A model generated the notes under the pieces. The model did not search any database. It was not told the DNA's origin and worked only from the letters and a program-made list of their open reading frames with translations. Both the position numbers and the translations under genes were made by a program. Below, piece by piece: positions 15,154-28,745 of a stretch of 34,441 nucleotides of DNA. This DNA is from Bacteriovoracia bacterium (GTDB taxonomy: Bacteria; Bdellovibrionota; Bacteriovoracia; Bacteriovoracales; Bacteriovoracaceae), in assembly GCA_030427595.1 (NCBI GenBank), contig JAUIBX010000013.1, forward strand, positions 1 through 34,441, in the 5' to 3' direction. Position 1 is the first letter of the stretch. Each line of letters starts with the position of its first letter.

Positions 15154-15600
15154 ACCCAGCCCTGAACTCCACCAAAACCAAAAGCGAAGGAAAACTGACA
15201 AAGACCCGCAAGCGCGCAGCGCGAGGAGTCTTCCGGCAGTTTGACGAAAGCGTTCGGAGGTAAATCTTCGAACTAGAGAAGTTGTTCTTGAAACAGGCAT
15301 GACAGACTAGCCAAAATCATCACCCAGCCCTGAACCCCACCAAAACTAAAAGCGAAGGAAAACTGACAAAGACCCGCAAGCGCGAAGCGCGAGGAGTCTT
15401 CCGGCAGTTTGACGAAAGCGTTCGGAGGTAAATCTTCGAACTAGAGAAGTTGTTCTTGAAACAGGCATGACAGACTAGCCAAAATCATCACCCAACCCCG
15501 AACCCCACCAAAACTAAAAGCGAAGCGAAATCGGCAAATGACCGCGGCAGCTTGCTGCAAGGTTATTCCGGCGATTGAGCGTAAGCTTGTCCTCGCACAT
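15154..15600. repeat. 168-bp tandem repeat (two near-identical copies plus a diverged third) with conserved nested inverted repeats
   Basis: Copy 1 is 15154-15321, copy 2 is 15322-15489; they differ at only a few positions. Copy 3 starts at 15490, keeps about 45 bases, then diverges in sequence but keeps the same architecture. In copies 1-2 AAACTG/CAGTTT encloses AAGAC/GTCTT and GCGC/GCGC. In copy 3 AATCG/CGATT encloses AATGACC/GGTTATT and GCAGC/GCTGC. A second stem-loop follows in each (GTTCG/CGAAC versus CATTC/GAATG). Minus-strand ORFs across this region are just repeat read-through. I do not recognise the element. Confidence 0.85.
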
Positions 15601-15620
15601 TCAAAGAATGAAGTACCACT

Positions 15621-15656
15621 CAACAAGCGACACCCGTAGGGTGAGCGACTCTAAAA
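15621..15656 (+). repeat. Short hairpin element (AGCGAC family), copy 1
   Basis: CAACAAGCGA then a small stem CACCC, loop GTA, GGGTG, then AGCGACTCTAAAA. The flanks match, in reverse complement, the two units at 28532 and 28582, while the stem sequence differs completely yet still pairs. Confidence 0.7.
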
Positions 15657-15673
15657 AAACCACGAGCCACAAA

Positions 15674-15699
15674 CCAAAGAAGGGAGACTTTCGTCTCCC
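15674..15699 (-). terminator. Terminator of the small hydrophobic ORF
   Basis: On the minus strand GGGAGAC, tetraloop GAAA, GTCTCCC is followed by TTCTTTGG. It starts about 10 nt after the stop of the 28-codon ORF at 15710-15796. Confidence 0.7.
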
Positions 15700-15709
15700 C
15701 CCTAAGGGC

Positions 15710-15796
15710 TTAAGAGTAAATAATCTCGTAGAGCATAACCAAAAGGTTAATCAACAAAATCAATACCTTAATCCATTGTAGGTACTTCTCCTCCAT
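15710..15796 (-). CDS. 28-residue hydrophobic peptide, type I toxin-like
   Basis: I found this ORF by reading the minus strand; it is very short. It starts MEEKYLQWIK, continues as an uninterrupted hydrophobic helix (VLILLINLLVMLYE) and ends IIYS. A charged N-terminus plus one membrane helix is the layout of type I toxins such as Ldr/Ibs/Fst and of some phage holin-like peptides. GGAGG lies five nt before the ATG, and a GNRA-loop terminator follows the stop. TTAACC, 17 nt, GATAAT on the minus strand upstream (about 15870-15842) is a possible promoter. No antisense RNA promoter is clear. A block TACCTACAATGG within the ORF is repeated about 117 nt upstream. Alternatives are a small membrane regulator or a chance ORF. 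Confidence 0.55.
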   Translation of the reverse strand: MEEKYLQWIKVLILLINLLVMLYEIIYS

Positions 15797-15905
15797 GAAA
15801 ACCTCCATTTAGGAGCCCTCGTCACTGAGGGAAATGGGGAGACATACCCAAAAAATATGCTATTATCAGCTAATCCCTTCTGGGGGTTAACCATTGTAGG
15901 TATAC

Positions 15906-15937
15906 AAAAAGCCCTTCTCTCGTAGAAGGGCTTTTTT
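15906..15937 (-). terminator. Terminator after the HIT gene (bidirectional)
   Basis: GCCCTTCT, loop CTCGT, AGAAGGGC with A5 on one side and T6 on the other can work on both strands. On the minus strand it follows the HIT gene stop by about 12 nt. Confidence 0.85.
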
Positions 15938-15948
15938 ATTTTTGAAAT

Positions 15949-16377
15949 CTAAATTTCCTTACGAATCCTCATGGCCACACCATCCAACTTTTCTCTCTCC
16001 CACTCATGTAAACCTCCACCATGAGAGAAGCCCATGGGGAGACCGTCGTTTACTACGCGCGGGCAAATATGAAGATGGGAGTGCATGACTTCCTGGCCAG
16101 CGACTTCACCATCGCTTAAGAAGAAGTTTGTGCCATCACACTTGATGTCGGAATTGAGGATAGCTGCTTGAATTTTTTGGGCCATCTTAAACATCTCTTC
16201 AAGGTAGACGGGTTCAATTTCTTGAAACCATTGGAAGTGTTTGTTGGGAATGACTAAGGCGTGTCCTTCTTGAATAGGGTGAAGATCCATAAAAGCGGTG
16301 ACAAAATCATTTTGAGCGATGAGGGAAACCTCTGCTTCACCTTTTAAAATTTTACAGAAAATACAATTGTCACTCAT
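15949..16377 (-). CDS. HIT-family nucleotide-binding protein
   Basis: HIT proteins are small nucleotide hydrolases or transferases that act on AMP-linked or dinucleotide substrates in the cytosol. The 142-residue product starts MSDNCIFCKILKGEAE, the common HIT N-terminus with a CxxC pair, has HALVIPNKHFQWFQE in the middle, and carries the catalytic HSHLHICPR (the H-x-H-x-H motif) near residue 104. GGAGG eight nt before the ATG at 16377 supports this start over one 20 codons upstream. It is divergent from the RmlD-like gene with about 74 bp between starts. Confidence 0.93.
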   Translation of the reverse strand: MSDNCIFCKILKGEAEVSLIAQNDFVTAFMDLHPIQEGHALVIPNKHFQWFQEIEPVYLEEMFKMAQKIQAAILNSDIKCDGTNFFLSDGEVAGQEVMHSHLHICPRVVNDGLPMGFSHGGGLHEWEREKLDGVAMRIRKEI

Positions 16378-16451
16378 ATAACCAACCTCCATACCCTGAT
16401 ACTTCTTGCCCATTATCTTATAATACCTATCGCTCATGCTAATATTTTCTT

Positions 16452-17471
16452 ATGGTTATTGGTAAGAAGTCCTTAAAGAAGAAAGAGGAAGAAGAGAAGG
16501 AAGACACCCGAAAGACGGTTGTGATCTTTGGTATTTCTTCTTTTCTTGGTTCTAATCTCGCTGAGTTTCTCAAGAGAGACTATAAGGTTGTTGGAACTTA
16601 CCACAAGCATTCGGTGAGGGTTCCTGGAGTACTCTCGATTCGTTGTGATGTTCTTGCCAAGGAAGAGGTTCAGCTTACTCTTTTTGCTTTCAAACCAGAC
16701 TTTGTGATTTATTGCGCAGGAGTTTCTTCCGTCTTGGATTGTCACAAAAAAGAAGAGCTTGCTGATGCTCTTAATACTTCTGGTCTTTTTAATGTCGCTG
16801 AATACTGCCAGCGTTATAAGGCGCAAATCTGTTACATAAGCTCAAGCTTTATCTTTGCCGGACAAAAGAAGAACTACTTTGAAATGGACATTCCTGATTC
16901 TTTAACTACCTACGGGAAGACTCAGGCCGCTGCAGAGTTTTATCTGCAAAAGACTTCATTAAACTATATTCTCTTTCGCTGTTGTCGCCTCTATGGCCGC
17001 TCTATTACGGCCCAAAGACCAACATGGTTTCAGAACTTTCAACGTCAAATGATGCAAAATAAAACACTGGCCATGGACGATTTCATTCATACAGGTTTCC
17101 TAGATGTTTATTACTTAGGTCTACTCATTAAAATGTGCTTAGACCGGAAGGTTTCAAATAGGCTCTTTCAAGTCTCTTCAAATGACATCGGCACACTTTA
17201 TGAGTTTTCGAAAACCTATTGTGAAGTCTTTGGTGCCAGTAAAGATTTGATTTCTAAAGGGCGCTGGCCTTTTCCGATGAACAAAACTCAATCAACGACT
17301 CAGGTTGAAGAGCAGCTCTACTTCAAACTTGATACGGCCAACCTTGAAGGTTTTCTCAATATCAATCTTCCTTCTATTAGAGAGTCTTTAGAATTCTCTT
17401 ACAACAGATTTGGTGGCCAAGCTCAGAATAAGAAGAAGTCTCAAGCTTCTGAGGGCATCAAGTTTATTTAA
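16452..17471 (+). CDS. NAD(P)-dependent sugar epimerase/reductase, RmlD-like SDR
   Basis: An extended short-chain dehydrogenase of 339 residues. The Rossmann nucleotide loop is VVIFGISSFLGSNLAE (about 22-37, G-x-x-x-x-x-G), followed by FVIYCAGVSSVLDC, ICYISSSFIFAG and YGKTQAAAE, which supplies the YxxxK pair. This matches dTDP-4-dehydrorhamnose reductase-like enzymes that make nucleotide sugars. The first 20 residues are very charged (KKSLKKKEEEEKED) and lie before the fold. No Shine-Dalgarno is visible; a TATAAT at 16419-16424 suggests a leader of about 20 nt. A role in flagellin or surface glycosylation is possible from context but not shown. Confidence 0.82.
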   Translation: MVIGKKSLKKKEEEEKEDTRKTVVIFGISSFLGSNLAEFLKRDYKVVGTYHKHSVRVPGVLSIRCDVLAKEEVQLTLFAFKPDFVIYCAGVSSVLDCHKKEELADALNTSGLFNVAEYCQRYKAQICYISSSFIFAGQKKNYFEMDIPDSLTTYGKTQAAAEFYLQKTSLNYILFRCCRLYGRSITAQRPTWFQNFQRQMMQNKTLAMDDFIHTGFLDVYYLGLLIKMCLDRKVSNRLFQVSSNDIGTLYEFSKTYCEVFGASKDLISKGRWPFPMNKTQSTTQVEEQLYFKLDTANLEGFLNINLPSIRESLEFSYNRFGGQAQNKKKSQASEGIKFI

Positions 17472-17488
17472 AAATTTTTGCTTTGGAA

Positions 17489-18016
17489 TTACTGAGCTGA
17501 CTGTTTGATAAACTCAGTGAGGTAGTGCTTCGCCATGGCGTGCATATCCACAGGCTCGCCTTGAAAGCGCCAGCTGATTTTATTGAAAGGCCCTAAATGA
17601 GCACGAATCTCGTGAACACCTTCAGAGCCAAATCGATCCTCTTGTTGAAGACGAGGAGCTAATAGGTCTTTTCCGTTTGAAATAAAGGCGATGCTAATAA
17701 GGTCATTAGCTTTACGGGCAAAGATTAAGCGCAATGAATTTCTAAAGAGCATAAAATCATTAACCGTATTTGAAATCTTGAAAATCTTAATGTGATTACT
17801 ATTTTGATGACCTCGATACTCGTTGAATTTGGCCACATAGAGTTCAATCAGATCACGAAGCTCATTCATAAATTCAATGGATGATTCTTCTAGGAAGTGA
17901 AGAGGGTTGAGGTGTTCGTGGATATCAATAACACCAGACTCTGACATATTGATTTCTTCAATGGCCAGATTCTCTACCCAAGTTGTTCCTGCTTCATTCT
18001 GATTAAGATTTTCCAT
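17489..18016 (-). CDS. Hypothetical protein
   Basis: I do not recognise this 175-residue protein. It has no signal peptide or membrane segment. It is acidic at the start (ENLAIEEINMSESGVIDIHEHL) and helical in the middle (IEFMNELRDLIELYVAKFNEYRG). The centre, HIKIFKISNTVNDFMLFRNSLRLIFARKANDLISIAF, could be a strand-helix-strand unit, and the end has INKISWRF-like strands before a helix. There is no ribosome site. A TTGACA-N17-CATCAT promoter ends about 6 nt before the ATG, so the mRNA may be leaderless. It is convergent with the RmlD-like gene. Confidence 0.75.
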   Translation of the reverse strand: MENLNQNEAGTTWVENLAIEEINMSESGVIDIHEHLNPLHFLEESSIEFMNELRDLIELYVAKFNEYRGHQNSNHIKIFKISNTVNDFMLFRNSLRLIFARKANDLISIAFISNGKDLLAPRLQQEDRFGSEGVHEIRAHLGPFNKISWRFQGEPVDMHAMAKHYLTEFIKQSAQ

Positions 18017-18022
18017 ACTTAA

Positions 18023-18051
18023 ATGATGATTTTAGTGAAGCTTATTGTCAA
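18023..18051 (-). promoter_or_regulatory. Candidate promoter giving a leaderless mRNA
   Basis: On the minus strand TTGACA (18051 down; read as TTGACA beginning at the base before TGACA) and CATCAT (18028-18023) are 17 nt apart. A start site about seven nt downstream falls on or next to the ATG at 18016, which has no purine-rich ribosome site. Confidence 0.5.
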
Positions 18052-18099
18052 TGAAAGGCTGATTGAAAGGGGGTTGGAGAAGAAAGAGAAAAAAAGAGT

Positions 18100-18367
18100 G
18101 GGTTTTGCTGGCTTCAAGTTTCCGCCCGTCATTTGACAGGTGGACGCAGTTAGTAACCACTTTAGGCTTCTCACCTCGAGCTTTCGCTGTTGTGAGCTTG
18201 CTCACCATGGCCAGGGACCGCTTCCTTGGTAGTTATTGTAGGGCGAAATACTGTATGCCAACCACAAAACCCATTTATGAGTATGCCCGAAAATAACGCA
18301 TTATTCAATGGTTAAATTTAGCCCTTGCTACCGTAAGTTTTTGAATATATTGAGTTTTGCTTATTTG
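18100..18367. other. Intergenic stretch with inverted repeats before the Tad operon
   Basis: No credible gene between 18017 and 18488; a 77-codon ORF at 18063 has no recognisable features. The stretch holds a perfect hairpin GTGAGC/GCTCAC near 18200, CGTC/GACG near 18130, and a segment that in reverse reads CAGCGAA...GAAGCCTAAA, a possible degenerate relative of the AGCGAC hairpin elements. Confidence 0.45.
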
Positions 18368-18396
18368 TTGCTGCGCATCATGAACTGGAGTATAAT
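18368..18396 (+). promoter_or_regulatory. Sigma-70-type promoter of the Tad/Flp operon
   Basis: TTGCTG (18368-18373), 17-nt spacer, TATAAT (18391-18396). The predicted start near 18403 gives a leader of about 85 nt before the Flp pilin ATG. The best promoter match in the window. Confidence 0.75.
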
Positions 18397-18407
18397 AGTC
18401 ATATAAG

Positions 18408-18480
18408 TCAGTTTCCACGAGGGAAAAAACTCAAGTTTTTCGGTGCCTAAGCCGATAACTTGCAAACAGAGGAATTTAGG
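18408..18480 (+). promoter_or_regulatory. Structured 5' leader of the Flp pilin mRNA
   Basis: Two stem-loops lie in the leader: TTTCC/GGGAAA around ACGA near 18411-18426, and CAAGTT (18432-18437) with AACTTG (18457-18462) enclosing TCGG/CCGA. AGGAG then precedes the start codon. It does not match the c-di-GMP riboswitch consensus as I know it. Confidence 0.5.
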
Positions 18481-18488
18481 AGCTGAGC

Positions 18489-18680
18489 ATGAAAAACCTA
18501 ATCATTGCTTTTCTTAAGGATGAAGAGGGTCAGACATCTACAGAGTATATTCTACTCGTTGCCGTTGTTGCCCTTATCGTCTTCAAGTTTAAGGACCAAG
18601 CAACCAAGAGGCTAGGTGACATCACTGATGGTGTGTTCACTGGTGCTGAAAGTTGGGTTGGCGAGCTAAATAATCAATAA
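18489..18680 (+). CDS. flp: Flp/Tad major pilin
   Basis: The 63-residue product is a Flp-type prepilin, the subunit of the thin Tad adhesion pilus. The N-terminus MKNLIIAFLKDEEG is the charged leader; processing by the TadV/CpaA peptidase is expected after the glycine, leaving QTSTEYILLVAVVALIVFKF, with the glutamate at mature position 5 or so and a hydrophobic helix. The rest is short and acidic. AGGAG lies ten nt before the ATG. A strong promoter and a hairpin just after the stop bracket it, so it is probably expressed far above the rest of the operon. Confidence 0.93.
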   Translation: MKNLIIAFLKDEEGQTSTEYILLVAVVALIVFKFKDQATKRLGDITDGVFTGAESWVGELNNQ

Positions 18681-18708
18681 ACCAGTTTAGGCACAGTCCT
18701 AAACTGGT
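18681..18708 (+). terminator. Hairpin after the pilin gene (attenuator or processing stem)
   Basis: ACCAGTTTAGG, 6-nt loop, CCTAAACTGGT forms an 11-bp perfect stem directly after the Flp stop. There is no U-tract after it, so it may stabilise the pilin mRNA or reduce read-through rather than stop transcription. A second inverted repeat AAAGGAAGT/ACTTCCTTT lies at 18741-18759, followed by CTTTTCC. Confidence 0.65.
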
Positions 18709-18795
18709 ATTTAGCTCACTTAAACTTAAATATCGCTTAAAAAGGAAGTGACTTCCTTTCTTTTCCTATTTTTATTTCCTGCTAAAATCAAATAC

Positions 18796-19011
18796 ATGAA
18801 AATCTTTAATAACGTTGGACAGGCGACGATTGAGTATTTGCTTATTTTCTCTTTCATATCATTGATAGGTGTAGGCTTAGCGAATGCTATTGGTTCAAGC
18901 ATCGCCGGAAGTACCAAAAGTCTTGGCTGGGTTCTGACTCAAGAACTGACGACGGGTGTCTGCCGCTCTCAGTGCTTTTATAGTGATTACAAAAATGGGA
19001 TTACGGATTGA
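18796..19011 (+). CDS. Small class III prepilin-like protein (Tad locus)
   Basis: A 71-residue protein beginning MKIFNNVG, then QATIEYLLIFSFISLIG, which is the glycine-cleavage site, glutamate and hydrophobic helix of Flp/TadE-type prepilins. The C-terminus has two cysteines (CRSQC) that could form a disulfide. A longer reading from 18748 adds a second hydrophobic stretch ahead of the leader; the family pattern favours the ATG at 18796, though its ribosome site is weak. Likely a minor pilin. Its stop overlaps the TTG start of the peptidase gene. Confidence 0.8.
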   Translation: MKIFNNVGQATIEYLLIFSFISLIGVGLANAIGSSIAGSTKSLGWVLTQELTTGVCRSQCFYSDYKNGITD

Positions 19012-19520
19012 GGTTCTCCTTATACCTTTTCATTCTCCTCGCTTTAGAACTCGTTTTTGTTTCCTATATTGATATTCGCTATCGAAAGATTTCAAACTAT
19101 TGGTCTATTCTCAATATCACGCTCTATTTTGCGATGCTCTTTGTTTTTCCATCTCTTTATAAATTTAATTTTGTGACTTTCTTTTATCCTGCAGTTTTTC
19201 TTGGGGTGGGATTCTTTCTATTTATCCTTAAAATTATGGGCGGTGGGGATTCAAAATATCTTTTCTCATTTTTCCTTTTAGTGCCCGAGTTTTATCATGA
19301 GCTTTTCTTTATGAAGCTGGTTTATTCGACCATTGCGATCGGACTTTACCTTCTTCTCTATAATACTATTCGAAATTTTGATAAACTATCCATGGCCATT
19401 AGGATTATGGACGTTAACGGAATAAAAGGAGTCTACGGCACTAAGTTTGCTTATGCTCCTGTTATAGCGATTTCATGGATAGCTTTCGGGTGGGAAATAA
19501 GAAACCAATTCATTTTTTAA
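19008..19520 (+). CDS. Prepilin peptidase, TadV/CpaA type
   Basis: An inner-membrane aspartic protease (family A24) that cleaves Flp and pseudopilin leaders. The 170-residue product is all membrane segments, with the two catalytic aspartates visible: YIDIRYRKISN near residue 22 and the GxGD-type IMGGGDSKYL near residue 76. It lacks the N-terminal methyltransferase domain of PilD, as expected for TadV. The start is TTG at 19008, sharing bases with the previous stop (TTGA), a coupled arrangement; no ATG is available nearby. It overlaps the next prepilin gene by about 45 nt. Confidence 0.88.
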   Translation: MRFSLYLFILLALELVFVSYIDIRYRKISNYWSILNITLYFAMLFVFPSLYKFNFVTFFYPAVFLGVGFFLFILKIMGGGDSKYLFSFFLLVPEFYHELFFMKLVYSTIAIGLYLLLYNTIRNFDKLSMAIRIMDVNGIKGVYGTKFAYAPVIAISWIAFGWEIRNQFIF

Positions 19521-19819
19521 AAGGACAAAAAGGTCAATCTACTGTTGAGTATGTCCTTTTGTTGGCCGTAGTAGTCTCTCTCGTAACTTCTGTTTTCAAC
19601 TCACCAACTTTTCAAGAGTTTTTTGGTGAAGACTCCCAATTCTTTAATGCGATTGCAGAAAGAATGAGGCTTGATTATCGCTATTCAACTAAAGTCGACT
19701 CTGGAGACGATATAGGAAATGCAAGGCCTACGGCCCATCCTTCCTTTAGTCAGCCAGACGGCTCATTATCTCGATTTTTTGGTTTTCAAGCAGGAGGAAG
19801 TCCGTACCCACCACCATGA
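19475..19819 (+). CDS. Prepilin-like protein (Tad locus)
   Basis: A 114-residue protein. After a basic leader (KKPIHFLKGQKG) comes QSTVEYVLLLAVVVSLV, the class III prepilin motif. The mature region is polar and ends in a proline/glycine-rich tail (GGSPYPPP). It overlaps the 3' end of the peptidase gene, and its own stop overlaps the next start as ATGA, so translation is coupled. Both the ATG at 19475 and a GTG at 19490 are possible starts. Function as a minor pilin is inferred from motif and place. Confidence 0.8.
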   Translation: MDSFRVGNKKPIHFLKGQKGQSTVEYVLLLAVVVSLVTSVFNSPTFQEFFGEDSQFFNAIAERMRLDYRYSTKVDSGDDIGNARPTAHPSFSQPDGSLSRFFGFQAGGSPYPPP

Positions 19820-20346
19820 AAAAGTTAAAAGAAGAAAAAGGACAATCGACGATAGAATTTCTCGTGAGCTTCTCCATGGCGTTAGGCTTCGTATTTGCCT
19901 TTTTAAAAATCTCCATTGCTTACACTAACGGCTACCTTGTTCATTATGTGAACTTCTTATCTTCGCGTGCCTATATGGTTGGGGAAAGAGACTCTAACCA
20001 GCCTTCTGGCTCAGATGGTGCGGCCAAGGATCTCGCAGAAGCTGTTTTTGAGGGTTTTAATATTGGTGGCATTATTCCTACTTTTGATAGCAATCTCCAA
20101 ATAGAAGACCCCGAAAGTAACCTGGGGGGAACCAATCTCTATATTGGAACTCGTGTTGAGTACGAAGAATCGATAAATATACCAGGCTCAACAAAGAAGA
20201 TTCGCTTTCCTTTTGTTTCAGAGTCCTACTTAGGTATGGAGCCTACAAGAGCAGAGTGCAAGTTTAGAATTTGTGATGCCATGTCGCGAGTGGGTTCAGG
20301 GGCGAGTTGCCTAAAGCATTCAACTGTATCTGATAATGGATGTTAA
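19816..20346 (+). CDS. TadE-like pseudopilin
   Basis: A 176-residue protein with the short leader MKKLKEEKG followed by QSTIEFLVSFSMALGFVFAF, a TadE/TadF-type prepilin signature. The remaining 140 residues form a periplasmic domain with cysteines near the end (ECKFRICDAM, SCLKH, DNGC) that could make disulfides. The ATG overlaps the previous stop (ATGA). TadE-like proteins are minor pseudopilins needed for Tad pilus assembly. Confidence 0.82.
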   Translation: MKKLKEEKGQSTIEFLVSFSMALGFVFAFLKISIAYTNGYLVHYVNFLSSRAYMVGERDSNQPSGSDGAAKDLAEAVFEGFNIGGIIPTFDSNLQIEDPESNLGGTNLYIGTRVEYEESINIPGSTKKIRFPFVSESYLGMEPTRAECKFRICDAMSRVGSGASCLKHSTVSDNGC

Positions 20347-20887
20347 TTTGAAAAGCCTAAAAGAGATGAGAAAACATTTACATGAAGATGAAAGTGGTCA
20401 GGCGATTTTTGAGCTTCTCATCTTTATGCCCATTCTGATTTTCTTTTATACGATTATTTTTAATGTTGGAAATTCAATCAATGTATCAATTAATCAACAA
20501 AAGGTGACGAGACGCTATTTCTACCACCTGACAAAGCAAAATAGCTTTGTTCCTAACAATAGAGTTCTAGAAAATTTTAAAGCGGGCTTTACTCGTGCAG
20601 GCATCGCGATGGTTGGTTTTGCAGACCGACTAGATGGTGGTGGCACTGGTAGTCCTATTGGACCCTGCTTTAAGTTTAATTCTTTCTTTGCAAGCGATAA
20701 TGGTGAAACTTGTGAGGATCCCACAAGTGGAGAAAGACAGACCTCATTTGTCAGAGTTTATACTGCTTATGGTGTCTGTGGTGAAAGTTACTCCCTTCAG
20801 GGTAACCGTTGGTTTGTTTTTAATTCATCTGGTCCCGGAGTACCTGACCCCAAAAGTAAGTATCTCGCCTGTTCTGTCTCTAACTAG
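20336..20887 (+). CDS. TadE/TadF-like pseudopilin
   Basis: A 183-residue protein overlapping the previous gene by 11 nt. The leader reaches HEDESG, then QAIFELLIFMPILIFFYTII, where phenylalanine stands one residue before the glutamate; this is the TadE-type motif. The periplasmic part carries a glycine-rich stretch (DRLDGGGTGSP) and four cysteines (GPCFKF, ETCEDP, YGVCGES, LACSVSN). The gene is followed by an AAAGGGG/CCCCTTT hairpin at 20892-20914, which may lower expression of the downstream genes. Confidence 0.8.
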   Translation: MDVNLKSLKEMRKHLHEDESGQAIFELLIFMPILIFFYTIIFNVGNSINVSINQQKVTRRYFYHLTKQNSFVPNNRVLENFKAGFTRAGIAMVGFADRLDGGGTGSPIGPCFKFNSFFASDNGETCEDPTSGERQTSFVRVYTAYGVCGESYSLQGNRWFVFNSSGPGVPDPKSKYLACSVSN

Positions 20888-20973
20888 TCAAAAAGGGGAT
20901 AATTCTGCCCCTTTCTCTAATAAAATTGACCCTTTGCTAAAATTATAAGGAACAGGATTCTGAGGAGTTGAGT

Positions 20974-21789
20974 GTGAATACACGGGCGTTCACCCTGGCA
21001 TTGGTCATCGCAGGTATAGCCGTCTTTATGGTCTACACCTATATCGAAGATCAAAAAAGTGCCTTGATAAGTCGCTATGGAACGGAAGTTTCAGTGGTGG
21101 TAGCGAAAAGAGATATTAAAGAATTGGAGCTTCTTGATGACACCAAGGTGTCTATTAAAACAGTTCCTAAAAACTTTGCCTCACCGGGAAGTTTTTCAAC
21201 GATTAAAGGCGTTGAAAACACCATGGCAACTGTTCCTATCATGAAAGGGGAGCAGATTACTAAGCCTCGTGTAACCTACCCTGGTGCAAAAACGGGTCTT
21301 TCTCGTCAGGTGAGTATTGGTAAAAGGGCCATCGCTATTCAGATCACAGAGAGGCAAGCGGTTTCTAAGCTGATCAAGCCTGGAGATCGAGTCGATGTAC
21401 TCGCGCCTATAGACTTTTCTAATGGGCGAAAGGATATGCAAAAAACGAATACGATCCTTCAGGATGTTCTGGTTCTTTCGACTGGTAAGAGTATGACCAA
21501 TGCTATTCCTATTTACGGGGTCAAGACACCAAAAGAAATTCGTAAGATGAATGCACAAGTCTATGAAAGATATGACACCGTTACTTTGGAGCTTACTCCT
21601 TACGAGGCCCAGAAGTTAATCTTTCTATTGGCCTACTCGGGTCAAAGACCTTGGCTCGCCCTAAGAAATAATAATGACAAAAAACGTGTTCGTATCAAAT
21701 CGACTGATATTTTTGATGTTATCGGCGAAGAGGGACGAGCCGAAGCTAAGAAGTATTTTGATTCACAAAATAAAAGAAGAGGTCAATGA
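20974..21789 (+). CDS. cpaB: CpaB/RcpC pilus assembly protein
   Basis: CpaB/RcpC is a periplasmic, membrane-anchored protein of Tad pilus machines that works with the secretin. The roughly 271-residue product has one N-terminal helix (FTLALVIAGIAVFMVYTYI), a SAF-like domain (VSVVVAKRDIKELELLDDTK to about residue 105) and the CpaB core with RAIAIQITERQAVSKLIKPGDRVDVLAPID and LTPYEAQKLIFLLAYSG. TTG at 20968 sits directly against GAGGAG, so the GTG at 20974, six nt away, is the better start. The next gene overlaps as ATGA. Confidence 0.9.
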   Translation: MNTRAFTLALVIAGIAVFMVYTYIEDQKSALISRYGTEVSVVVAKRDIKELELLDDTKVSIKTVPKNFASPGSFSTIKGVENTMATVPIMKGEQITKPRVTYPGAKTGLSRQVSIGKRAIAIQITERQAVSKLIKPGDRVDVLAPIDFSNGRKDMQKTNTILQDVLVLSTGKSMTNAIPIYGVKTPKEIRKMNAQVYERYDTVTLELTPYEAQKLIFLLAYSGQRPWLALRNNNDKKRVRIKSTDIFDVIGEEGRAEAKKYFDSQNKRRGQ

Positions 21790-23285
21790 TACACAAATTT
21801 GCAGCTAGCCTTTTATTTTCACTCTTCATGATTCTTGCAATCATGTCTCAAGGCTTTGCCCAATCAAGCACAGTACAAGAAAAGCCTGTTGAAGTTATCT
21901 TAGGGATCGATAAGATTATCAAATTAGATTTTTCACCTAATCCACAGGTTCAAGTCGGTAATGAGTCATTGGTTCGAATTACAATGGTTCCTCAGAAAAG
22001 AGAAATTGTTTTGGCGGGCCAAAAGCCTGGCAAAACATCGGTTACATTAAGAAACAATGTCGGGGATGTGAAGGCCATATTTGTGGTTACAGTAACCGCA
22101 AATGATCAATCCCGTCTTGTAAAAGAATTGAAAGATTTTATTGGGGATGTTGAAGGTCTTGAGATTGGTATAAAGGGAGAAACTGTTTATGTTGGAGGAA
22201 ATATCATTGTTCCTAATGATATCGGTCGCGTTGTTAAGGTTTTAAATCAAGAAAAGTTTGGAGAGGTTCTTTTTCTTGTGGAACTTAGTCCCCAGACTGA
22301 GCGCTTAGTTGCCAGAAAAATGCAGGAAGAGATTCAAAAGAACCAGTTACCAGATGTCACAGTGCGAGTTGTTAATCATACATATTGGCTGGAGGGCATC
22401 GTAAACTCTGAAGGCAAGAAGAGAAGGGCTGAAGATATTGCAAAAGCCTTTTATCCCGATAAAATTGCTTCTTTGGCAGAAAGAACTGGGCAAGTAATTC
22501 AAGCTCAAAAGCCAGCTATTCAAAACTTTATCCAAGTAAATGAGAAGAGTCAGCCTCCACCTCTTGATAAACTCATAAAGGTAACGGCTCAGTTTGTTGA
22601 GCTTATTAAAGACTATTCCAAGACCTTTGGTTTTAAATGGACACCTCTCCTTTCAAATGGAGCAGGTGAAATCAATATTGGTCGGACAAATAATGGTGGT
22701 GTTACAACGAGATCAGAAGGCACTCTTTCAGGAACAATTTCTAATCTCTTTCCGAAGCTAAATTCAGCTAGGCAGGCGGGTTATGCCCGAGTCGTTCAAA
22801 GTGGAGTCATTGTCGTCAAAGATAAGAAAGATGGTCGAATCACAAAAGATGATACCCGTCGTTTTAGTTTAGGTTCTGGAGAGTTTGCCCAGGCCCAGCA
22901 GGCCCGAGCTCAATTTACCGTTGACGTGAGACCAGAGATTTTACAAGAAGAAAAGATTAACCTTACTTTAAATGTAACAGTCTCTTCAAATACAGGGGCA
23001 AACCCACCGGCAACCCAATCAAATGCCATAAAAACTGAGATCATTGTTAAATCCAAAGAAAGTGCTGTTGTTGGCGGGATTGTGATTAATAAGTCTTCTA
23101 CTGATTATGACAAACTCCCACCTGATGAGGTTCAAGGCTCAAGTCCACTATTTAACTTTGTTAGAGGTAAGGCCTTCTCCAATTCGAAATCTCAATTTGT
23201 TGTCTTTGTCACACCCGAGATTGTTGAATCAGCTAGTTCTGGAACAGAAGACATTAAGCGCAAGTTTCGTAGGAGAAGACGCTAA
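21786..23285 (+). CDS. cpaC: Outer-membrane secretin CpaC/RcpA
   Basis: The secretin forms the outer-membrane channel for the Tad pilus. The 499-residue product has a signal peptide (MIHKFAASLLFSLFMILAIM, cleavage after GFAQ-type end near 26), the pilus-formation N-terminal domain (VEVILGIDKIIKLDFSPNPQ to about residue 105), a BON-like region, and the secretin domain from about residue 270 (KLIKVTAQFVELIKDY) through NLTLNVTVSSNTG and SKESAVVGGIVINKSS to FVVFVTPEIVES. It ends in a run of arginines (KRKFRRRRR). No lipobox is seen. Start and stop overlap both neighbours, so the block is tightly coupled. Confidence 0.93.
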   Translation: MIHKFAASLLFSLFMILAIMSQGFAQSSTVQEKPVEVILGIDKIIKLDFSPNPQVQVGNESLVRITMVPQKREIVLAGQKPGKTSVTLRNNVGDVKAIFVVTVTANDQSRLVKELKDFIGDVEGLEIGIKGETVYVGGNIIVPNDIGRVVKVLNQEKFGEVLFLVELSPQTERLVARKMQEEIQKNQLPDVTVRVVNHTYWLEGIVNSEGKKRRAEDIAKAFYPDKIASLAERTGQVIQAQKPAIQNFIQVNEKSQPPPLDKLIKVTAQFVELIKDYSKTFGFKWTPLLSNGAGEINIGRTNNGGVTTRSEGTLSGTISNLFPKLNSARQAGYARVVQSGVIVVKDKKDGRITKDDTRRFSLGSGEFAQAQQARAQFTVDVRPEILQEEKINLTLNVTVSSNTGANPPATQSNAIKTEIIVKSKESAVVGGIVINKSSTDYDKLPPDEVQGSSPLFNFVRGKAFSNSKSQFVVFVTPEIVESASSGTEDIKRKFRRRRR

Positions 23286-25510
23286 TGGCCGGCCACGTAA
23301 TTACCATTATTGGTGGAAAAGGCGGGGTTGGTAAATCTCAGGTTGCTGCTAACCTGGCCTTTGCTCATGCAGCCGAAACACGTTCAAAGGTGATGCTTCT
23401 TGATTTTGACCAAAAGGCTTCAGGTGATCAAAACTTTATTACCGGTATAAAGTCTAAAAAGACTGTACGTGAACTTGCAGAATTTAATGGGGCCATTGAT
23501 CCTCGCTCGATCATGCCTTTTATTTCCGCCCACCCTGCGGGAGTTCAATACATTGGAATGCCTGATGATCCGGCGGCATCCGAGTCAATTAATTCCGATG
23601 GCATGGGCAAGTTCCTTAAGGCTGCCCCTAACCTTTTTCCTTTAACTGTCATCGATGGTGGAAGTGAACTAACGCCTTTGACATTGAAAGCTCTTGAGTA
23701 TTCCACAGCGATTTTCATTGTCGTCACTCCCGATATCCTTGCACTAAATCAGTCAAAAAGACTCTATAGCGAGCTTGTTACGATGCTCTTTCCTAAGGAC
23801 ATGATTCTTTTGATTGGAAATCAAGTTCAAAAAGGGCATCCCGTCACTCCTGAAGTGATGGGAAAGACAATCGGTAAGCCAGTATTTGCGACGATACCTA
23901 AAGACGATCAAATTTGTGTCACTGCCTTAAATCAGAAAAAACCCATCATGATTATTGGCAAAAACTCTGCTTTTGCTAAGGGAGCAACGGAATGTGTACG
24001 AAAACTTATTCAAAGAAACGTACTTAAGACTCTTGCTCGTCTCCAAAAGCCTTCTGATGTTCAAAAGAAAAGTTCCTCCTCTCTTGGAGAAGGGGAAGGC
24101 AAGGGGAACTCTTGGACTGATCTTAAGTCGAGGATTCATAGAACTCTTGTCGATGAGATGGATCTTAAAAAAACGGATAAAGATGATCCTAAAGCACAGG
24201 TTATTTTAAGAGAGCAAACAAAGAAACTCGTGGTTGAAATACTTAACAAAGAAGACACCAAGGGAATCCTTAACTCTCGCGAAGATATGAGCCAGATTGT
24301 TAAAGAGATCCTTGATGAAGCCCTCGGCCTAGGCCCCCTTGAAGATCTTCTTGCAGATAAAGAGTGCTCTGAAATTATGGTTATTGGGCCGGATAAAATT
24401 TATTATGAGCATGGCGGGAAAATTAAAAAATCTCCGATTACATTCACAAATGATCGCCAGGTTTTAAATGTAATTGAAAGAATTGTTGCTCCTATTGGCC
24501 GTCGAATTGATGAGAAGACTCCCTATGTGGATGCTCGTCTGCGAGATGGCTCTCGAGTTCACGCAATTATTCCTCCGTGTGCACTAGATGGTTGTACGAT
24601 TACCATTCGAAAATTCCCTGAAAACCGCCTCACTTATAAAGACCTCGTTAAGTTTGATTCTATGACTCAGAATATGGCCGACTTTTTGCGGATTGCTGTT
24701 GAGGCCCACAAGAATATTATTGTTTCTGGTGGTACTGGTTCTGGTAAGACGACCCTTATTAATGTCCTGGGAAGCTTTATTCCTGCCAACGAAAGGGTGA
24801 TTACTTGTGAAGACTCTGCCGAACTTGATCTTCCTCAAGATCACGTCGTGCGCCTTGAAACACGTCCACCGTCTCTCGAAGGTGATGGTGAGATTGATAT
24901 TCGCTGCCTTGTTAAGCAAACATTGAGAATGCGTCCCGATAGAATTGTGGTCGGGGAGTGTCGTGGAGGTGAAACTCTCGATATGCTTCAGGCCATGGGT
25001 ACAGGTCACGAAGGTTCAATGACAACAGTTCACTCCAATAATCCGCGTGAGTGTATCGGCCGTATTGAAACACTTGTTCAATATGCTGGTGCGGGCCTTG
25101 AGCCTCGAGCTATTCGTGAAATGATTTCTAACGCTGTTCACCTCATTATTCAGCAGTCTCGTCTTGATGATGGCTCTCGCCGAGTGACTTATATTACTGA
25201 GCTTGGAGGGATGCAAGGGGATGTGGTTATCCTTCAAGATATCTTTGTTTATAACCAACGAGGTTTTGATAAGAGTGGAAAGATTCAAGGTGAGTTTCAA
25301 GCAACGGGATTTATTCCCAAGTTTATCGAGATCCTTGAGAAGAAAGGTTACAACGTTCCAAGAGGACTTTTTAACAATACTCAGCAAGCGCCACCGAAAC
25401 CAGAAGGAGATAAACCTCCTGCACAAGACCAGGCGCCTGCAAATAAGGGGCAAGCTCCCCAACAAAAGAGACCTCAAGGTAAACCTGATCCTAAAAAGAG
25501 AAGAGCATAG
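23285..25510 (+). CDS. Fused TadZ/CpaE-like ATPase and TadA/CpaF motor ATPase
   Basis: One 741-residue chain joins two Tad proteins that are usually separate. Residues 1-250 are a MinD/ParA-like domain: ITIIGGKGGVGKSQVAANLA (deviant Walker A), MLLDFDQKASGDQN and FPLTVIDGGSELTPL, as in TadZ/CpaE, which places the machine in the cell. There is no receiver domain. After a charged linker (250-300) comes the TadA/CpaF secretion ATPase: LGPLEDLLADKECSEIMV, FRKFPENRLT-like region, VSGGTGSGKTTLINVLG (near 479-495), RMRPDRIVVGECRGGE and TGHEGSMTTVHSNNP. The tail from about 705 is proline/lysine/glutamine-rich. No frameshift joins the parts; the frame is open throughout. It overlaps the secretin stop by 1 nt. 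Confidence 0.93.
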   Translation: MAGHVITIIGGKGGVGKSQVAANLAFAHAAETRSKVMLLDFDQKASGDQNFITGIKSKKTVRELAEFNGAIDPRSIMPFISAHPAGVQYIGMPDDPAASESINSDGMGKFLKAAPNLFPLTVIDGGSELTPLTLKALEYSTAIFIVVTPDILALNQSKRLYSELVTMLFPKDMILLIGNQVQKGHPVTPEVMGKTIGKPVFATIPKDDQICVTALNQKKPIMIIGKNSAFAKGATECVRKLIQRNVLKTLARLQKPSDVQKKSSSSLGEGEGKGNSWTDLKSRIHRTLVDEMDLKKTDKDDPKAQVILREQTKKLVVEILNKEDTKGILNSREDMSQIVKEILDEALGLGPLEDLLADKECSEIMVIGPDKIYYEHGGKIKKSPITFTNDRQVLNVIERIVAPIGRRIDEKTPYVDARLRDGSRVHAIIPPCALDGCTITIRKFPENRLTYKDLVKFDSMTQNMADFLRIAVEAHKNIIVSGGTGSGKTTLINVLGSFIPANERVITCEDSAELDLPQDHVVRLETRPPSLEGDGEIDIRCLVKQTLRMRPDRIVVGECRGGETLDMLQAMGTGHEGSMTTVHSNNPRECIGRIETLVQYAGAGLEPRAIREMISNAVHLIIQQSRLDDGSRRVTYITELGGMQGDVVILQDIFVYNQRGFDKSGKIQGEFQATGFIPKFIEILEKKGYNVPRGLFNNTQQAPPKPEGDKPPAQDQAPANKGQAPQQKRPQGKPDPKKRRA

Positions 25511-25517
25511 GTAAAGT

Positions 25518-26411
25518 ATGTCTTACGTCATTACTACCATTTTAGGCTATAAAGGAATTGTCGCACTCACAGGCTTTTTGATTTTTGTTTTTTGTTTGCG
25601 TTACTCTACGGTTATTTTTGATTGGATTGAAAGACAAACACTCGGTACAAGAATTTACATTCAAGAAAAGTTAGAGTTGCTCTTTATTGATATACCACCA
25701 GATCGCCTCACAATGGGGCTTTTGATCTTTTCTCTCCTTCTCTCAACATTTTTCTTAGTTTTCTTTGGCATGTGGATTAGTTGGATACTAGGATTCATCA
25801 TCGGTATAGGTGTCGGTGTTCTATCATTTCGCGTACCAAAGTTTGTTGTGGATTATTTAGTCGAAAGAAGAATTAAGCAGTATCAGAATCAAATGGTTGA
25901 TGGTTTAACCCTTCTTGCAAACGGAATTCGTGCCGGCCTTTCAGTACCCCAAGCCTTGGGAATGGTTGTGAATGAACTTAATCCCCCGATCTCTCAAGAG
26001 TTCGGTATGATCTTACAGCAAAATAGAATTGGTGTGACTCTTGAGGAGTGTTTTGAAAACCTTGCGAAAAGGGTTCCGACTGAAGATAACGATATGTTTG
26101 TCTCTTCCATCAATATCCTAAGGGAGACAGGTGGTAACCTCGCTGAAGTTTTCGATACTATTGTGGCTGTTATTAGGGAAAGAGTCCGTCTTCAACAGAA
26201 AATTGATACCTATACAGCACAAGGGATGTTCCAAGGGGTGACGATTGCCTGTATGCCTTTTGCTATCGCGGGAATCTACGGCGCGTCTGATCCGAACTCA
26301 ATAAAATTACTTGTCACCAATCCCATTGGGATAATCCTCACTCTTGTAGCCTTAACCCTTGATTTTGTTGGGTTTATGGTCATTTTGAAGATCGTAAAGA
26401 TAAAGATTTAG
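25518..26411 (+). CDS. tadB: TadB inner-membrane platform protein
   Basis: A type II secretion F-domain protein of 297 residues, the inner-membrane platform of the Tad pilus. Membrane helices lie near residues 8-28, 64-84, 88-110, 243-262 and 270-292. Between them is the cytosolic F domain with MVDGLTLLANGIRAGLSVPQ, TLEECFENLAKRVPTEDN and NILRETGGNLAEVFDTI, all typical of TadB. The partner TadC usually follows immediately, but here an AT-rich hairpin and an unrelated Rhs gene follow. AGGT lies before the ATG. It is the last gene of the operon. Confidence 0.92.
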   Translation: MSYVITTILGYKGIVALTGFLIFVFCLRYSTVIFDWIERQTLGTRIYIQEKLELLFIDIPPDRLTMGLLIFSLLLSTFFLVFFGMWISWILGFIIGIGVGVLSFRVPKFVVDYLVERRIKQYQNQMVDGLTLLANGIRAGLSVPQALGMVVNELNPPISQEFGMILQQNRIGVTLEECFENLAKRVPTEDNDMFVSSINILRETGGNLAEVFDTIVAVIRERVRLQQKIDTYTAQGMFQGVTIACMPFAIAGIYGASDPNSIKLLVTNPIGIILTLVALTLDFVGFMVILKIVKIKI

Positions 26412-26414
26412 CCT

Positions 26415-26437
26415 AAAAAAAGCGCTAAAGCTTTTTT
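26415..26437 (+). terminator. Probable terminator of the Tad operon
   Basis: AAAAAAAGC, loop GCTAAA, GCTTTTTT follows the tadB stop by three nt. The stem is AT-rich, so it may be weak. Confidence 0.6.
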
Positions 26438-26498
26438 GCTATGGGGTCGAAAAGAGACAGAGAGATTTAATAAGTCTGTATGGAATAAAGGACTACTC

Positions 26499-28124
26499 AT
26501 GAGAGCTATTCGTTTACTGTTATTGTTTTTTCTAATGCCTGCTTTGGCATTTGCTGGTGTTAATCTTAAGAACGGGAATTTCTACATCTCGTACACAGAT
26601 ATCATTGTTCCTGGTGGAGGAATGGATCTGGAAATTACTCGTACCAACAACTCAAAATCGACCGAAAAAGGTTGGTTTGGATTTGGATGGGGTAGTGATT
26701 ACGAAACTTATGTAACTGTTTCTGCCGATGGTTCAGTTGTCGTTCATGAAAACGGCTCCGGCGCCTTGACACGATTCACACCGAAAACAGCAGTTGACGC
26801 GAATAAGGCCGCTGAAAATATTGTAGCTGCTATTCGTAAAAGAAGCTCTATCAATGACAAGTTTGCAAAGGATCTTCTTGAAAAGCTAAAGAATGATGCT
26901 GAACTCAGACAAGCCTATGCTCGTAAGTACAAAGTTTCTGCTAAGATTGCAGATGGGACTGAGCTCTTCTCAAATACACGTGGTCTACAAAAACTTATCA
27001 AAACGAAAAAAGGCTTCGTTCGTCACTTCAATGACGGAAAAAAAGAGTACTTTAACAAAGACGGAAATCTCTCTCAAATCGTTACTAAAAATGGATATAA
27101 AGTAGACCTTACTTACAAGAAGGGTAAGCTTGTTAGCATCAAAGACAGTCAAGCTAAGCAGTTATTCTTTGAGTGGTATCCAGATGGTAAAGTGAAGCAT
27201 ATTTACTCTGCTGGCGATAAGAAGACGTTTTACAAGTATCGTGGTGACGACCTGATTGAGTCAAAGGACGTTGCTGGAAATGTTTTCAAGTATGGTTATG
27301 ATGCCAACCACAACATGACGTCTGTTACTTATACCGACAATTCAAAGCTCAAAATTTCTTATACTCCAAAAACTCAGTTTGTTGAGGAAGTTGTTTCAAG
27401 AAATGGTGAGTCGACTAAGTATGAGTATGACTCAAATCCTAAGAATCCAGAATTTCACTACTGGACGACTGTAACTAAGAAGTCTCCAAGCGGGAAAGTT
27501 TCAAAGTCAAAGTATGAGTATGAGATTAAGACTCGTCCTGATGGCTCACAATACACTTATAGAATTGCTACTGAGATCAATGGTATTAACACAGAGACTA
27601 TTTACTCTGAGTGTTGTTCTCTACCTCTTAAAATCACAAGAGGGAACCACACAACAACTTTTGAGTACAATAAGAAAGGTCTTCTTACCAAGAAGTCTTC
27701 AACTAAGGGTGATATGGTTCAGCTTGCTTACCACCCTAAGTTCAACAAGATTACTAAGGTTACCAATAGTCGTGGGACTACGAAGTTTGACTACGATGAT
27801 CGCGCTAACCTAGTTAAGGCCACTAATGACAAAGGTAAATCCGTTATGCTCTTTTATGATCATAAAGGCCGTATCCAGAGAATGTACGACAAAGACCGCA
27901 AGACCAATAAAACTCGTGTTCTTAGCTTTAAGTACAATGCTCTCGGTAAGCCTGTAGAAATCAAAATGAAGGGTGTTGGCAAGATCAACGTAGCCTATGA
28001 CAACTACGGTGAAATAAAGAAGGTTGAGTCAAAGCAAGGTCATAAAATGGCCCTACAAGTTACTCAAGCCTTCCAAAGCCTTCTGGCCATCGTGAAGCCT
28101 GCAGGTGTTAATCTGAATATGTAA
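26499..28124 (+). CDS. Short secreted Rhs/YD-repeat protein
   Basis: A 541-residue protein with a signal peptide (MRAIRLLLLFFLMPALAFAG). The N-terminus (TDIIVPGGGMDLEITRTNNS, then GWFGFGWGSDYE) is the DUF6531-like start of Rhs proteins, and the rest holds many YD-type strands: YFNKDGNLSQIVTKNGYKVD, YKYRGDDLIESKDVAGNV, YGYDANHNMTSVTY, FDYDDRANLVKATNDKGKS and FKYNALGKPVE. It ends without a variable toxin tip or the PxxxxDPxG core boundary, so it is not an ordinary polymorphic toxin. A single CC pair occurs in YSECCSLPLK. AAGGA precedes the ATG at 26499; an ORF start 21 codons upstream is rejected. It may be a surface or envelope protein. Confidence 0.82.
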   Translation: MRAIRLLLLFFLMPALAFAGVNLKNGNFYISYTDIIVPGGGMDLEITRTNNSKSTEKGWFGFGWGSDYETYVTVSADGSVVVHENGSGALTRFTPKTAVDANKAAENIVAAIRKRSSINDKFAKDLLEKLKNDAELRQAYARKYKVSAKIADGTELFSNTRGLQKLIKTKKGFVRHFNDGKKEYFNKDGNLSQIVTKNGYKVDLTYKKGKLVSIKDSQAKQLFFEWYPDGKVKHIYSAGDKKTFYKYRGDDLIESKDVAGNVFKYGYDANHNMTSVTYTDNSKLKISYTPKTQFVEEVVSRNGESTKYEYDSNPKNPEFHYWTTVTKKSPSGKVSKSKYEYEIKTRPDGSQYTYRIATEINGINTETIYSECCSLPLKITRGNHTTTFEYNKKGLLTKKSSTKGDMVQLAYHPKFNKITKVTNSRGTTKFDYDDRANLVKATNDKGKSVMLFYDHKGRIQRMYDKDRKTNKTRVLSFKYNALGKPVEIKMKGVGKINVAYDNYGEIKKVESKQGHKMALQVTQAFQSLLAIVKPAGVNLNM

Positions 28125-28143
28125 TGCCTACTTTTGGTGGCAG

Positions 28144-28167
28144 GGTCCTGAACCTAAATTCAGGACC
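28144..28167 (+). terminator. Hairpin after the Rhs gene
   Basis: GGTCCTGAA, loop CCTAAA, TTCAGGACC. The following bases (TTAGTTCTAAGG) lack a U-tract, so read-through into the small peptide gene at 28243 is possible. Confidence 0.6.
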
Positions 28168-28242
28168 TTAGTTCTAAGGTTAGGTTATTTTAGGACTTAG
28201 AGAGAAAATAGATACACAAACACAAAAATGTGGAGCGAAAAA

Positions 28243-28455
28243 ATGAAAACTTTAAAAACCCTTATGTTGATGTTGATGTTGGTATCGAGTGCCTCTGTTA
28301 TAGCTACAGAAGCTGTAGCAGGCGGTGAGAGTTTGACTGCTGAAGATTGTATGGAAGAAGTTGTGGATTCGGACAGAGGTGCTGCTGATGTCACCCTGGA
28401 GGATGAACAGCCCACGAACAATCCACATCCCCCTGCAGCTGTTGATGCAGAATAA
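28243..28455 (+). CDS. Small secreted acidic single-cysteine peptide (P1)
   Basis: A 70-residue product. MKTLKTLMLMLMLVSSASVI plus a few residues is a signal peptide with cleavage near TEAVA. The mature part is acidic (EDCMEEVVDSDRGAADVTLE) with one cysteine at position 36 and a proline-rich end (NNPHPPAAVDAE). It resembles the peptides at 28889 and 32202 in size, signal, acidity and single cysteine. GGAG lies seven nt before the ATG at 28243, so a start five codons earlier is rejected. No sigma-54 site is seen upstream, unlike the other two; it may be read with the Rhs gene. A strong terminator follows. Function unknown. Confidence 0.75.
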   Translation: MKTLKTLMLMLMLVSSASVIATEAVAGGESLTAEDCMEEVVDSDRGAADVTLEDEQPTNNPHPPAAVDAE

Positions 28456-28492
28456 GTTTTAAATAGATCAAAATATATTTCTTTTTTTAGAG

Positions 28493-28520
28493 GCCCACTC
28501 GAAAGAGTGGGCTTTTTTTT
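28493..28520 (+). terminator. Terminator after peptide P1
   Basis: GCCCACTC, tetraloop GAAA, GAGTGGGC followed by eight T residues: a textbook intrinsic terminator. Confidence 0.95.
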
Positions 28521-28531
28521 GGGGGGGTCCA

Positions 28532-28577
28532 TTTTGAGTCGCTTAGTTGGCGTTGCCAACTGGCGCTGGTTGAGGGG
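28532..28577 (-). repeat. AGCGAC-family hairpin element, copy 2
   Basis: On the plus strand TTTTGAGTCGCTT, then stem AGTTGGC, loop GTT, GCCAACT, then GGCGCTGGTTG. The flanks match copy 3 (50 bp further on) and, in reverse complement, copy 1 at 15621, while the stems differ and still pair perfectly. Confidence 0.8.
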
Positions 28578-28581
28578 TACC

Positions 28582-28625
28582 TTTTGGCGTCGCTTACTCC
28601 CTGCGGGAGTGTCGCTGGTTGGGTG
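28582..28625 (-). repeat. AGCGAC-family hairpin element, copy 3
   Basis: On the plus strand TTTTGGCGTCGCTT, stem ACTCCC, loop TGC, GGGAGT, then GTCGCTGGTTG. Period to copy 2 is 50 bp. Same flanks, different but fully complementary stem. Confidence 0.8.
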
Positions 28626-28641
28626 AATTCATGGCATTTGA

Positions 28642-28745
28642 GAACGCTTCAGCGGCCGCGAGCTGCGCTCTAGCCGCTTTTCGCTAGTCACATACATCTC
28701 TGCGCCATTTGACCTGCCAGTGGCAGGTCATGGGCGCAGGATGTG
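28642..28745 (+). repeat. Bipartite inverted-repeat element A upstream of peptide P2
   Basis: First part: GCTTC, stem AGCGGC/GCCGCT with an inner AGC/GCT, then TTCGCTAGTCACA. Second part: ACATC...GATGT enclosing CTGCGCC/GGCGCAG and the dyad CCTGCCAGTGGCAGG. A second copy with changed but still pairing stems lies at 31976. It ends 74 nt before a sigma-54 promoter, so it may be an activator-binding region. I do not recognise it. Confidence 0.8.

Follow-up and report, generated by a model that had tools for sequence, protein, structure and literature searches.

The hairpin units of the window

The window analysed here is a stretch of 34,441 nucleotides from a Bacteriovoracia bacterium (GenBank assembly GCA_030427595.1, contig JAUIBX010000013.1). 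It contains a flagellin B gene and an epimerase gene, a YD-repeat gene, and three short hairpins that carry nearly constant flanks around entirely different stems. One hairpin (unit 1) lies on the plus strand between the flagellin B and epimerase genes, and the other two (units 2 and 3) form a tandem pair on the minus strand, preceded by the YD-repeat gene. The units read AGCGAC ACCC GTA GGGT G AGCGAC (unit 1, at 15621), AGCGAC ACTCCC GCA GGGAGT A AGCGAC (unit 2, at 28582) and AGCGCC AGTTGGC AAC GCCAACT A AGCGAC (unit 3, at 28532). The first-pass annotation had described three hairpins with three-base loops at these places. The loop is indeed 3 nt long in all three units, with the corrections that the left flank of unit 3 is AGCGCC rather than AGCGAC and that the stem of unit 1, ACCC/GGGT, has 4 bp, lengthened to CACCC/GGGTG (5 bp) by an adjoining C-G pair. 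Unit 3 is a direct tandem copy of unit 2, about 50 bp apart from it.

The combined pattern AGCGACN{8,26}AGCGAC is found twice in the window and in none of 100 dinucleotide shuffles. Single flanks occur at chance level (12 matches versus 12.4 expected, and 13 versus 16.2), so that what is rare in the window is the combination of the flanks and not either flank alone.

A family of units with exchanged stems

The same layout recurs across the genome: GTACCACCCAACCAGCGAC, a stem arm of 4-7 bp, a 3-nt loop, the second arm, RAGCGAC and an A-rich linker, with a length of about 50 bp where units stand in tandem. A genome-wide search for AGCGACN{8,30}AGCGAC, of the kind proposed by the first-pass annotation, returned 14 matches against 5 in the reversed control. 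Most of the 14 are not hairpins; three qualify as perfect hairpin units, of which two lie in the window and one on contig C187, and a fourth match, on C283, led to a neighbouring unit. Model R1 and the linker pattern added units on C278 (two), C153 (three), C306 and C256 (four). By patterns, models and reading together, the family comprises 15 units at 8 loci, a modest copy number for a repetitive extragenic palindromic (REP) sequence, and as far as read the units lie between genes. Tandem units on C42, C278, C153 and C256 are in direct orientation with a period of about 50 bp. The covariance model R3 recovers 11 of the 15 units, nine of them strongly and the outer two on C153 with E-values of 0.003 and 0.013; its E-values, calculated over one genome, reach 7e-13, which is partly by construction. 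The four nearly identical C256 units are missed by R3 and are supported by reading and, for three of them, by the pattern, while the matches of R1 rest mostly on flank sequence. Searches for the stem AGTTGGCNNNGCCAACTAAGCGAC in viral contigs and for GAGGTATGTGACYAGGGAG among the genome contigs searched gave no match.

Constancy of the flanks and exchange of the stems were quantified in 12 units, with the four C256 copies counted as one. The arms are perfect complements in all 12, with nine distinct stems and no G.T pair. The inner flanks are more alike than the arms: mean pairwise identity is 0.77 for the final 8 nt on the left and 0.66 for the initial 7 nt on the right, whereas the two arms reach 0.47 and 0.52, and in 39 of the 66 unit pairs less than half of an arm is common. 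In an alignment of nine units, 98.2% of the cells pair, four of the seven base pairs display two-sided changes, and the covariation score is 0.294; shuffles give 0.088, with none of the 500 reaching the observed value, and slid controls do not exceed 0.095. The 12 additional copies, with covariation above both controls, bear out the earlier claim of constant flanks around compensatory stems. Independent stem changes are few because several units have AGTTNNC stems in common; the stems AGTTCGC and AGTCCGC, from the same array, differ by compensated changes. The right flank runs on as AAGCGACG (CGTC on the opposite strand) in 3 of the 12 units, some nucleotides away from the stem.

A possible antisense relation of the left flank to tRNA (AACCAGCGAC against GTCGCTGGTT, present in 4 of 30 tRNAs) was considered and rejected as weak, with 17 of 500 shuffles scoring equally.

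Chains, insertion sites and relatives

The units close longer chains built of hairpin modules (Table 1). At four of the eight loci (C187, C278, C283 and C256) a tRNA gene precedes the units on the same strand, at a distance of 177-432 bp. Neither window chain adjoins a tRNA; both start at terminators. The chains on C187, C278 and C283 open, on the tRNA side, with a module carrying a GGTCAC-hairpin-GCTCCC motif. This motif has 11 matches in the whole genome and none in the control; in seven cases it starts 51-58 bp behind a tRNA, and in an eighth case the distance is 280 bp. The first-pass annotation had proposed two larger elements, A and B, as relatives of the units. In chain type, in position and in having constant unpaired motifs with changed stems they agree with that proposal, but they do not share the sequence of the unit. 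Within element B, GTATGTGACYAG recurs in the chains on C187, C278, C283 and C338.

Table 1. Features of the two window chains, their surroundings and the related core elsewhere
Feature	Position	Strand	Details
Hairpin unit 1	15613..15661	+	linker GTACCACTCAAC, flank AGCGAC (15626-15631), loop GTA, flank GAGCGAC, A-rich linker
Unit 1 stem ACCC/GGGT	15632-15635 + 15639-15642	+	4 bp
Hairpin unit 2	28578..28621	-	CAACCAGCGAC, stem ACTCCC/GGGAGT (28605-28610, 28596-28601), loop GCA, AAGCGACGCCAAAA
Hairpin unit 3	28527..28572	-	CAACCAGCGCC, stem AGTTGGC/GCCAACT (28555-28561, 28545-28551), loop AAC, AAGCGACTCAAAA
Upstream module, chain of units 2 and 3	28640..28695	-	GTATGTGACTAGCGAAAAGCGGC..GCCGCTGAAGCG; element B
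First module, chain of units 2 and 3	28688..28748	-	outer arms TCACAT/ATGTGA and CTGCGCC/GGCGCAG; inside them, inner hairpin TGACCTGCC ACT GGCAGGTCA
Whole inserted chain of the tandem pair	28521..28748	no strand	G7 run at start, directly after terminator T8
Terminator before the tandem-pair chain	28493-28520		ends in T8
Hairpin modules upstream of unit 1	15105..15600	+	start immediately at the flagellin terminator T-run
168-bp tandem array, upstream of unit 1	15154-15530	+	
Element A, upstream of unit 1	15519-15590	+	
Extra DNA (about 1.26 kb) relative to G031 and G032	15053-16451		flagellin B to epimerase; holds hairpin modules, 168-bp repeats, unit 1 and HIT-family gene
HIT-family gene	15949-16437		
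ERIC-like core CGGTCACGTACn3-6GTACGCTCCC	L134-L253		several phyla, mostly between genes

Many tRNA trailers contain copies of the 3' part of the tRNA that precedes them. Counting 30 of the 32 tRNAs, and excluding six that precede another tRNA and two with short trailers, inverted copies (at least 10 nt) of the 3' part of the own tRNA occur in 7 of 22 trailers, compared with 12 of 462 pairings with another tRNA. Direct copies occur in 4 of 22 versus 9 of 462. The inverted copy on C283 spans 15 nt of the tRNA 3' end. The fold z-scores of the trailers are mixed: -6.1 for the window chain, where the folded stretch includes the terminator hairpin, -2.3 for C283, and -1.3 and -2.4 for the flagellin-side pieces. 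The best-folding trailer, C268, has no unit. A lenient Rfam search of 17 related loci gave only tRNA above the gathering score and no family for the units, and the blastn comparison of the C187 trailer with E. coli gave no match.

The trailer of the C268 tRNA-Pro contains long inverted pieces of its own tRNA. A terminator T8 followed by a G7 run is seen at two chain ends (28513-28527, and C278 near 3770), and a relative (L275) has a single G where the tandem-pair chain has G7.

The site of the tandem pair is empty in other genomes of the genus, as the first-pass annotation had suggested should be checked. The YD-repeat gene is conserved in same-genus genomes (78-89% identity), as is the downstream gene order. 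The chain is absent from all six of these genomes (L275-L280), five of which were aligned and the sixth (L279) read unaligned, and R3 has no match in the six loci. In the relatives the terminator and its T-run pass into continuing sequence; here T8 is followed by G7 and a chain of about 220 bp.

At the flagellin site, which in the relatives was seen through regions adjoining the YD gene, the flagellin B-epimerase spacing is 132 bp in G032 and 136 bp in G031, compared with 1399 bp here. The site is thus short in two of the four relatives where it is visible; the gap of G030 (L355), with about 2.5 kb of other DNA, was left out of the comparison. In both this genome (G000) and G033 a related hairpin module starts exactly at the end of the flagellin terminator T-run, with stems that differ (AAACCG/CGGTTT in G033, AAACTG/CAGTTT here). 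From these sequences it appears that the site was used twice, or that the module was lost in between. A search of the genus for the HIT protein encoded next to unit 1 gave distant paralogues only.

Directly behind the flagellin terminator, at 15105-15141, stand two AGGA-loop hairpins (GCATTC AGGAT GAATGC and GGC AGGA GCC), which are retained in G033 and are reminiscent of CsrA sites. Near-identical TTTTGGCACATCyCTTGCTT stretches at 28814-28844 and 32148-32178, each before small open reading frames (ORFs), resemble sigma-54 promoters; the TGGCA..TTGC pattern of the former is also present there in relatives. The Rfam scan of the window detected a 6S RNA on the minus strand (18093-18278; RF00013) and nothing else, the units included.

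The unit itself is almost confined to this genome. Among 129 genomes of the family (48 genera), the covariance model finds it in two, the present one (9 matches) and the sister species G031 (one degenerate copy with a T.G pair in the stem, E 1.6e-4), and not in the other 127. In 40 tRNA trailers of the sister genomes G031 and G032, two of them shortened at contig ends, strict patterns for the ERIC-like core (described below) and the GTATGTGAC module gave no match, nor did R3; L338 is one near-match among these trailers.

Affinities and origin of the family

The genome has a REP system of its own. It carries three Y1_Tnp genes (L015-L017), the REP-associated tyrosine transposase (RAYT) genes that the first-pass annotation had asked about, and the repeat associated with them is GGTACCACGTACC, not the hairpin unit. 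This repeat (at most 1 mismatch) is present 90 times, the control giving 1 (examples are at L015, L017, L025 and L042). Most copies form inverted pairs with a spacing of about 56 bp, the arrangement of REP doublets forming hairpins (REPIN). Repeats of this type stand at the Y1_Tnp loci L015 and L017, with none listed for L016. The linker of the unit and the RAYT-associated repeat GAAAAAGTACCACGTACC both contain AAAAGTACCAC, and GTACCACGAACC comes after the unit on C187; the common AAAAGTACCAC may reflect shared ancestry or a shared enzyme and is a lead only.

REP super-families combine a constant unpaired tag with stems that have alternative complementary residues, and CGTC repeats occur without a known transposase (PMC3733652). 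The GTAG- and CGTC-tagged REPs described there resemble the units in being short extragenic hairpins, often behind genes, with some families restricted to a single species. The units are short multi-copy extragenic palindromes as well, but they differ from these REPs in tag and dimer type, lack the GTAG tag, are not flanked by a RAYT gene and do not form inverted pairs. As a mobile palindromic repeat in the broad sense of miniature inverted-repeat transposable elements, the family agrees in its empty site in relatives (6 of 6). The proposal of a REP-like mobile element therefore holds for the empty site and fails for membership of a REP/RAYT pair, and the first-pass interpretation as a whole is partly supported.

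The chains can also be likened to composite elements. BOX elements of pneumococcus (PMC3049150) consist of end modules and a variable number of similar-sized tandem hairpin modules, as here; the comparison is one of architecture. In our chains the tandem module stands at one end and its stems are replaced. Enterobacterial repetitive intergenic consensus (ERIC) sequences, or intergenic repeat units, are intergenic palindromic elements, as the chains are (PMC10969869 and PMC2267715). Published ERIC primers spell GTCAC TTAC..GTAA GCTCC, and the tRNA-side modules on C187, C278 and C283 contain such an ERIC-like core in their GGTCAC-hairpin-GCTCCC. This core, which in ERIC lies within a 127-bp palindrome, is absent from the hairpin unit.

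The ERIC-like core extends well beyond this genome. The pattern CGGTCACGTACN{3,6}GTACGCTCCC occurs in at least 120 stretches across the genomes searched, where simple arithmetic gives fewer than one; by title these genomes belong to Bacteroidales, Clostridia, Bacillales genera, Coriobacteria, Verrucomicrobia, Myxococcales, Desulfovibrio and Gammaproteobacteria. Among the 119 listed matches with 70 nt on both sides, CGTTG lies upstream in 51 (10.7 in shuffles) and CCTTG downstream in 68 (13.1). The two sides of one match are complementary over at least 8 nt in 72 of these 119, versus 7 when sides of different matches are paired, so that among the matches listed the outer arms pair within a copy and not between copies. 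Only 31 of the 128 listed cores lie inside an ORF of at least 150 aa, whereas ORFs cover 0.78 of those loci. The copy from Citrobacter aligns over 127 bp, the stated length of ERIC, with sequence for which the median number of sites in an E. coli genome is five. PMC10969869 places ERIC in Enterobacteriaceae and Vibrionaceae; our literature search found no ERIC reports in other phyla, which is no proof of their absence from print. Only 9 of 87 listed core matches are within 300 bp of a tRNA, implying that the linkage to tRNA is a trait of the present genome.

From these comparisons, the family is probably a non-autonomous, species-private palindromic repeat that has recently spread, with the hairpins as its terminal, tandem-repeatable modules. 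It is likewise rather probable that it belongs to the REP/ERIC/BOX kind of repeat and is recognised through its unpaired flanks. The unit would be recognised from its two unpaired borders (CCCAACCAGCGAC, and RAGCGAC with the A-rich linker) together with the short perfect hairpin between them, and the stem sequence would then be free provided that the arms match. The multi-hairpin chains, with the units at their 3' end, would have entered next to the T-run of an intrinsic terminator or shortly after the 3' end of a tRNA, where an insertion is expected to do little harm. Movement may have proceeded through a folded single-stranded form, catalysed by a trans-acting enzyme, for which a Y1/HUH enzyme would be the natural candidate. 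Stems may have been rewritten both by compensated substitution and by template switching, the latter perfecting the two arms in one step. Template switching has been described, on RNA gene histories, as making or repairing perfect hairpin stems in a single event (PMC8794818); by analogy, it would yield constant borders and replaced stems such as those of the units. It is favoured over ordinary compensated change by the absence of G.T pairs among the 12 units and by the inverted copies of tRNA sequence, but recency could explain the missing G.T pairs too.

Several points weigh against a recently mobile repeat. Segmental duplication of chains, and not transposition, could be the source of the copies. 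The aligned junctions are too diverged for a target-site duplication to be called, and the ends of the element are likewise undefined. The flagellin-site module is present in the more distant G033 and not in G031 or G032, which makes a loss as possible as two insertions. No enzyme is tied to the units, and neither the pattern nor R3 places a unit in the three Y1_Tnp loci, where a different repeat stands. The figure of two in 129 genomes derives from 48 scored candidates per genome under strict filters, which weak copies could escape, and the count of 15 units is a lower bound, given that the assembly consists of 360 contigs with several chains at contig ends (C117, C132, C338).

Among the alternatives, the units could belong to a functional structured RNA, transcribed as a trailer of tRNAs (and of the flagellin mRNA), in which the hairpins and the fixed single-stranded motifs beside them would serve in protein binding or in protection or processing of the transcript, their insertion history being incidental. 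The constant strand and order behind tRNA genes at four of eight loci, the compensated stems, and trailers that at several loci fold better than shuffles (most of all the window chain, with its terminator hairpin included) speak for such a role. We nevertheless regard it as unlikely, because close relatives are almost without copies and their orthologous tRNAs manage without, a stem selected solely as RNA would not be expected to lack G.T pairs in all 12 units, the fold scores are mixed with the best trailer devoid of a unit, Rfam has no matching family, and neither of the two chains in the window adjoins a tRNA. Mobilisation as a REP family by the genome's own RAYT enzymes, to which the three Y1_Tnp genes, the common linker motif and the sequence following the C187 unit would point, is decidedly improbable: the RAYT loci hold no unit, the abundant repeat of that kind is a different one, the units are direct tandems rather than inverted pairs, and the GTAG and CGTC tags of PMC3733652 are not conserved, CGTC being confined to the three right flanks mentioned above.

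The core boxes of integron attC sites are inverted relative to each other. Conserved structure, free stem sequence and tandem arrays would fit recombination sites that, like attC, are read as folded strands; the flanks AGCGAC and AAGCGAC are, however, direct repeats, and the period of about 50 bp leaves no cassette ORFs between units, so that this reading is very improbable. The chance likeness of three unrelated hairpins, compatible as it is with single flanks at chance level, has a negligible probability and is refuted by the 12 further copies, together with the absence of the combined pattern from the shuffles and the low E-values of R3, even though these are partly by construction.

The preferred reading, a recently spread private repeat, can be extended to a broad class of hairpin elements including ERIC, in which identity would be kept only in the unpaired motifs. 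At each new site, template switching would rewrite the stems with reverse copies of the surrounding sequence, the T-arm of an adjacent tRNA included; the window hairpins would represent a fresh, species-private branch and the ERIC-like cores of several phyla the widespread form. We consider this extension doubtful. The family itself offers a clean natural case in which the unpaired part is kept and the stem exchanged, so that it can be asked what an enzyme or a transcript actually reads. Since sister species are without copies, it should be possible to trace step by step where the elements inserted, how tRNA pieces were captured and how stems were rewritten. If ERIC-like elements of other phyla follow the same rule, with arms that pair within a copy and not between copies, the usual searches by sequence identity would miss most of them, and their distribution in bacteria would be badly underestimated.

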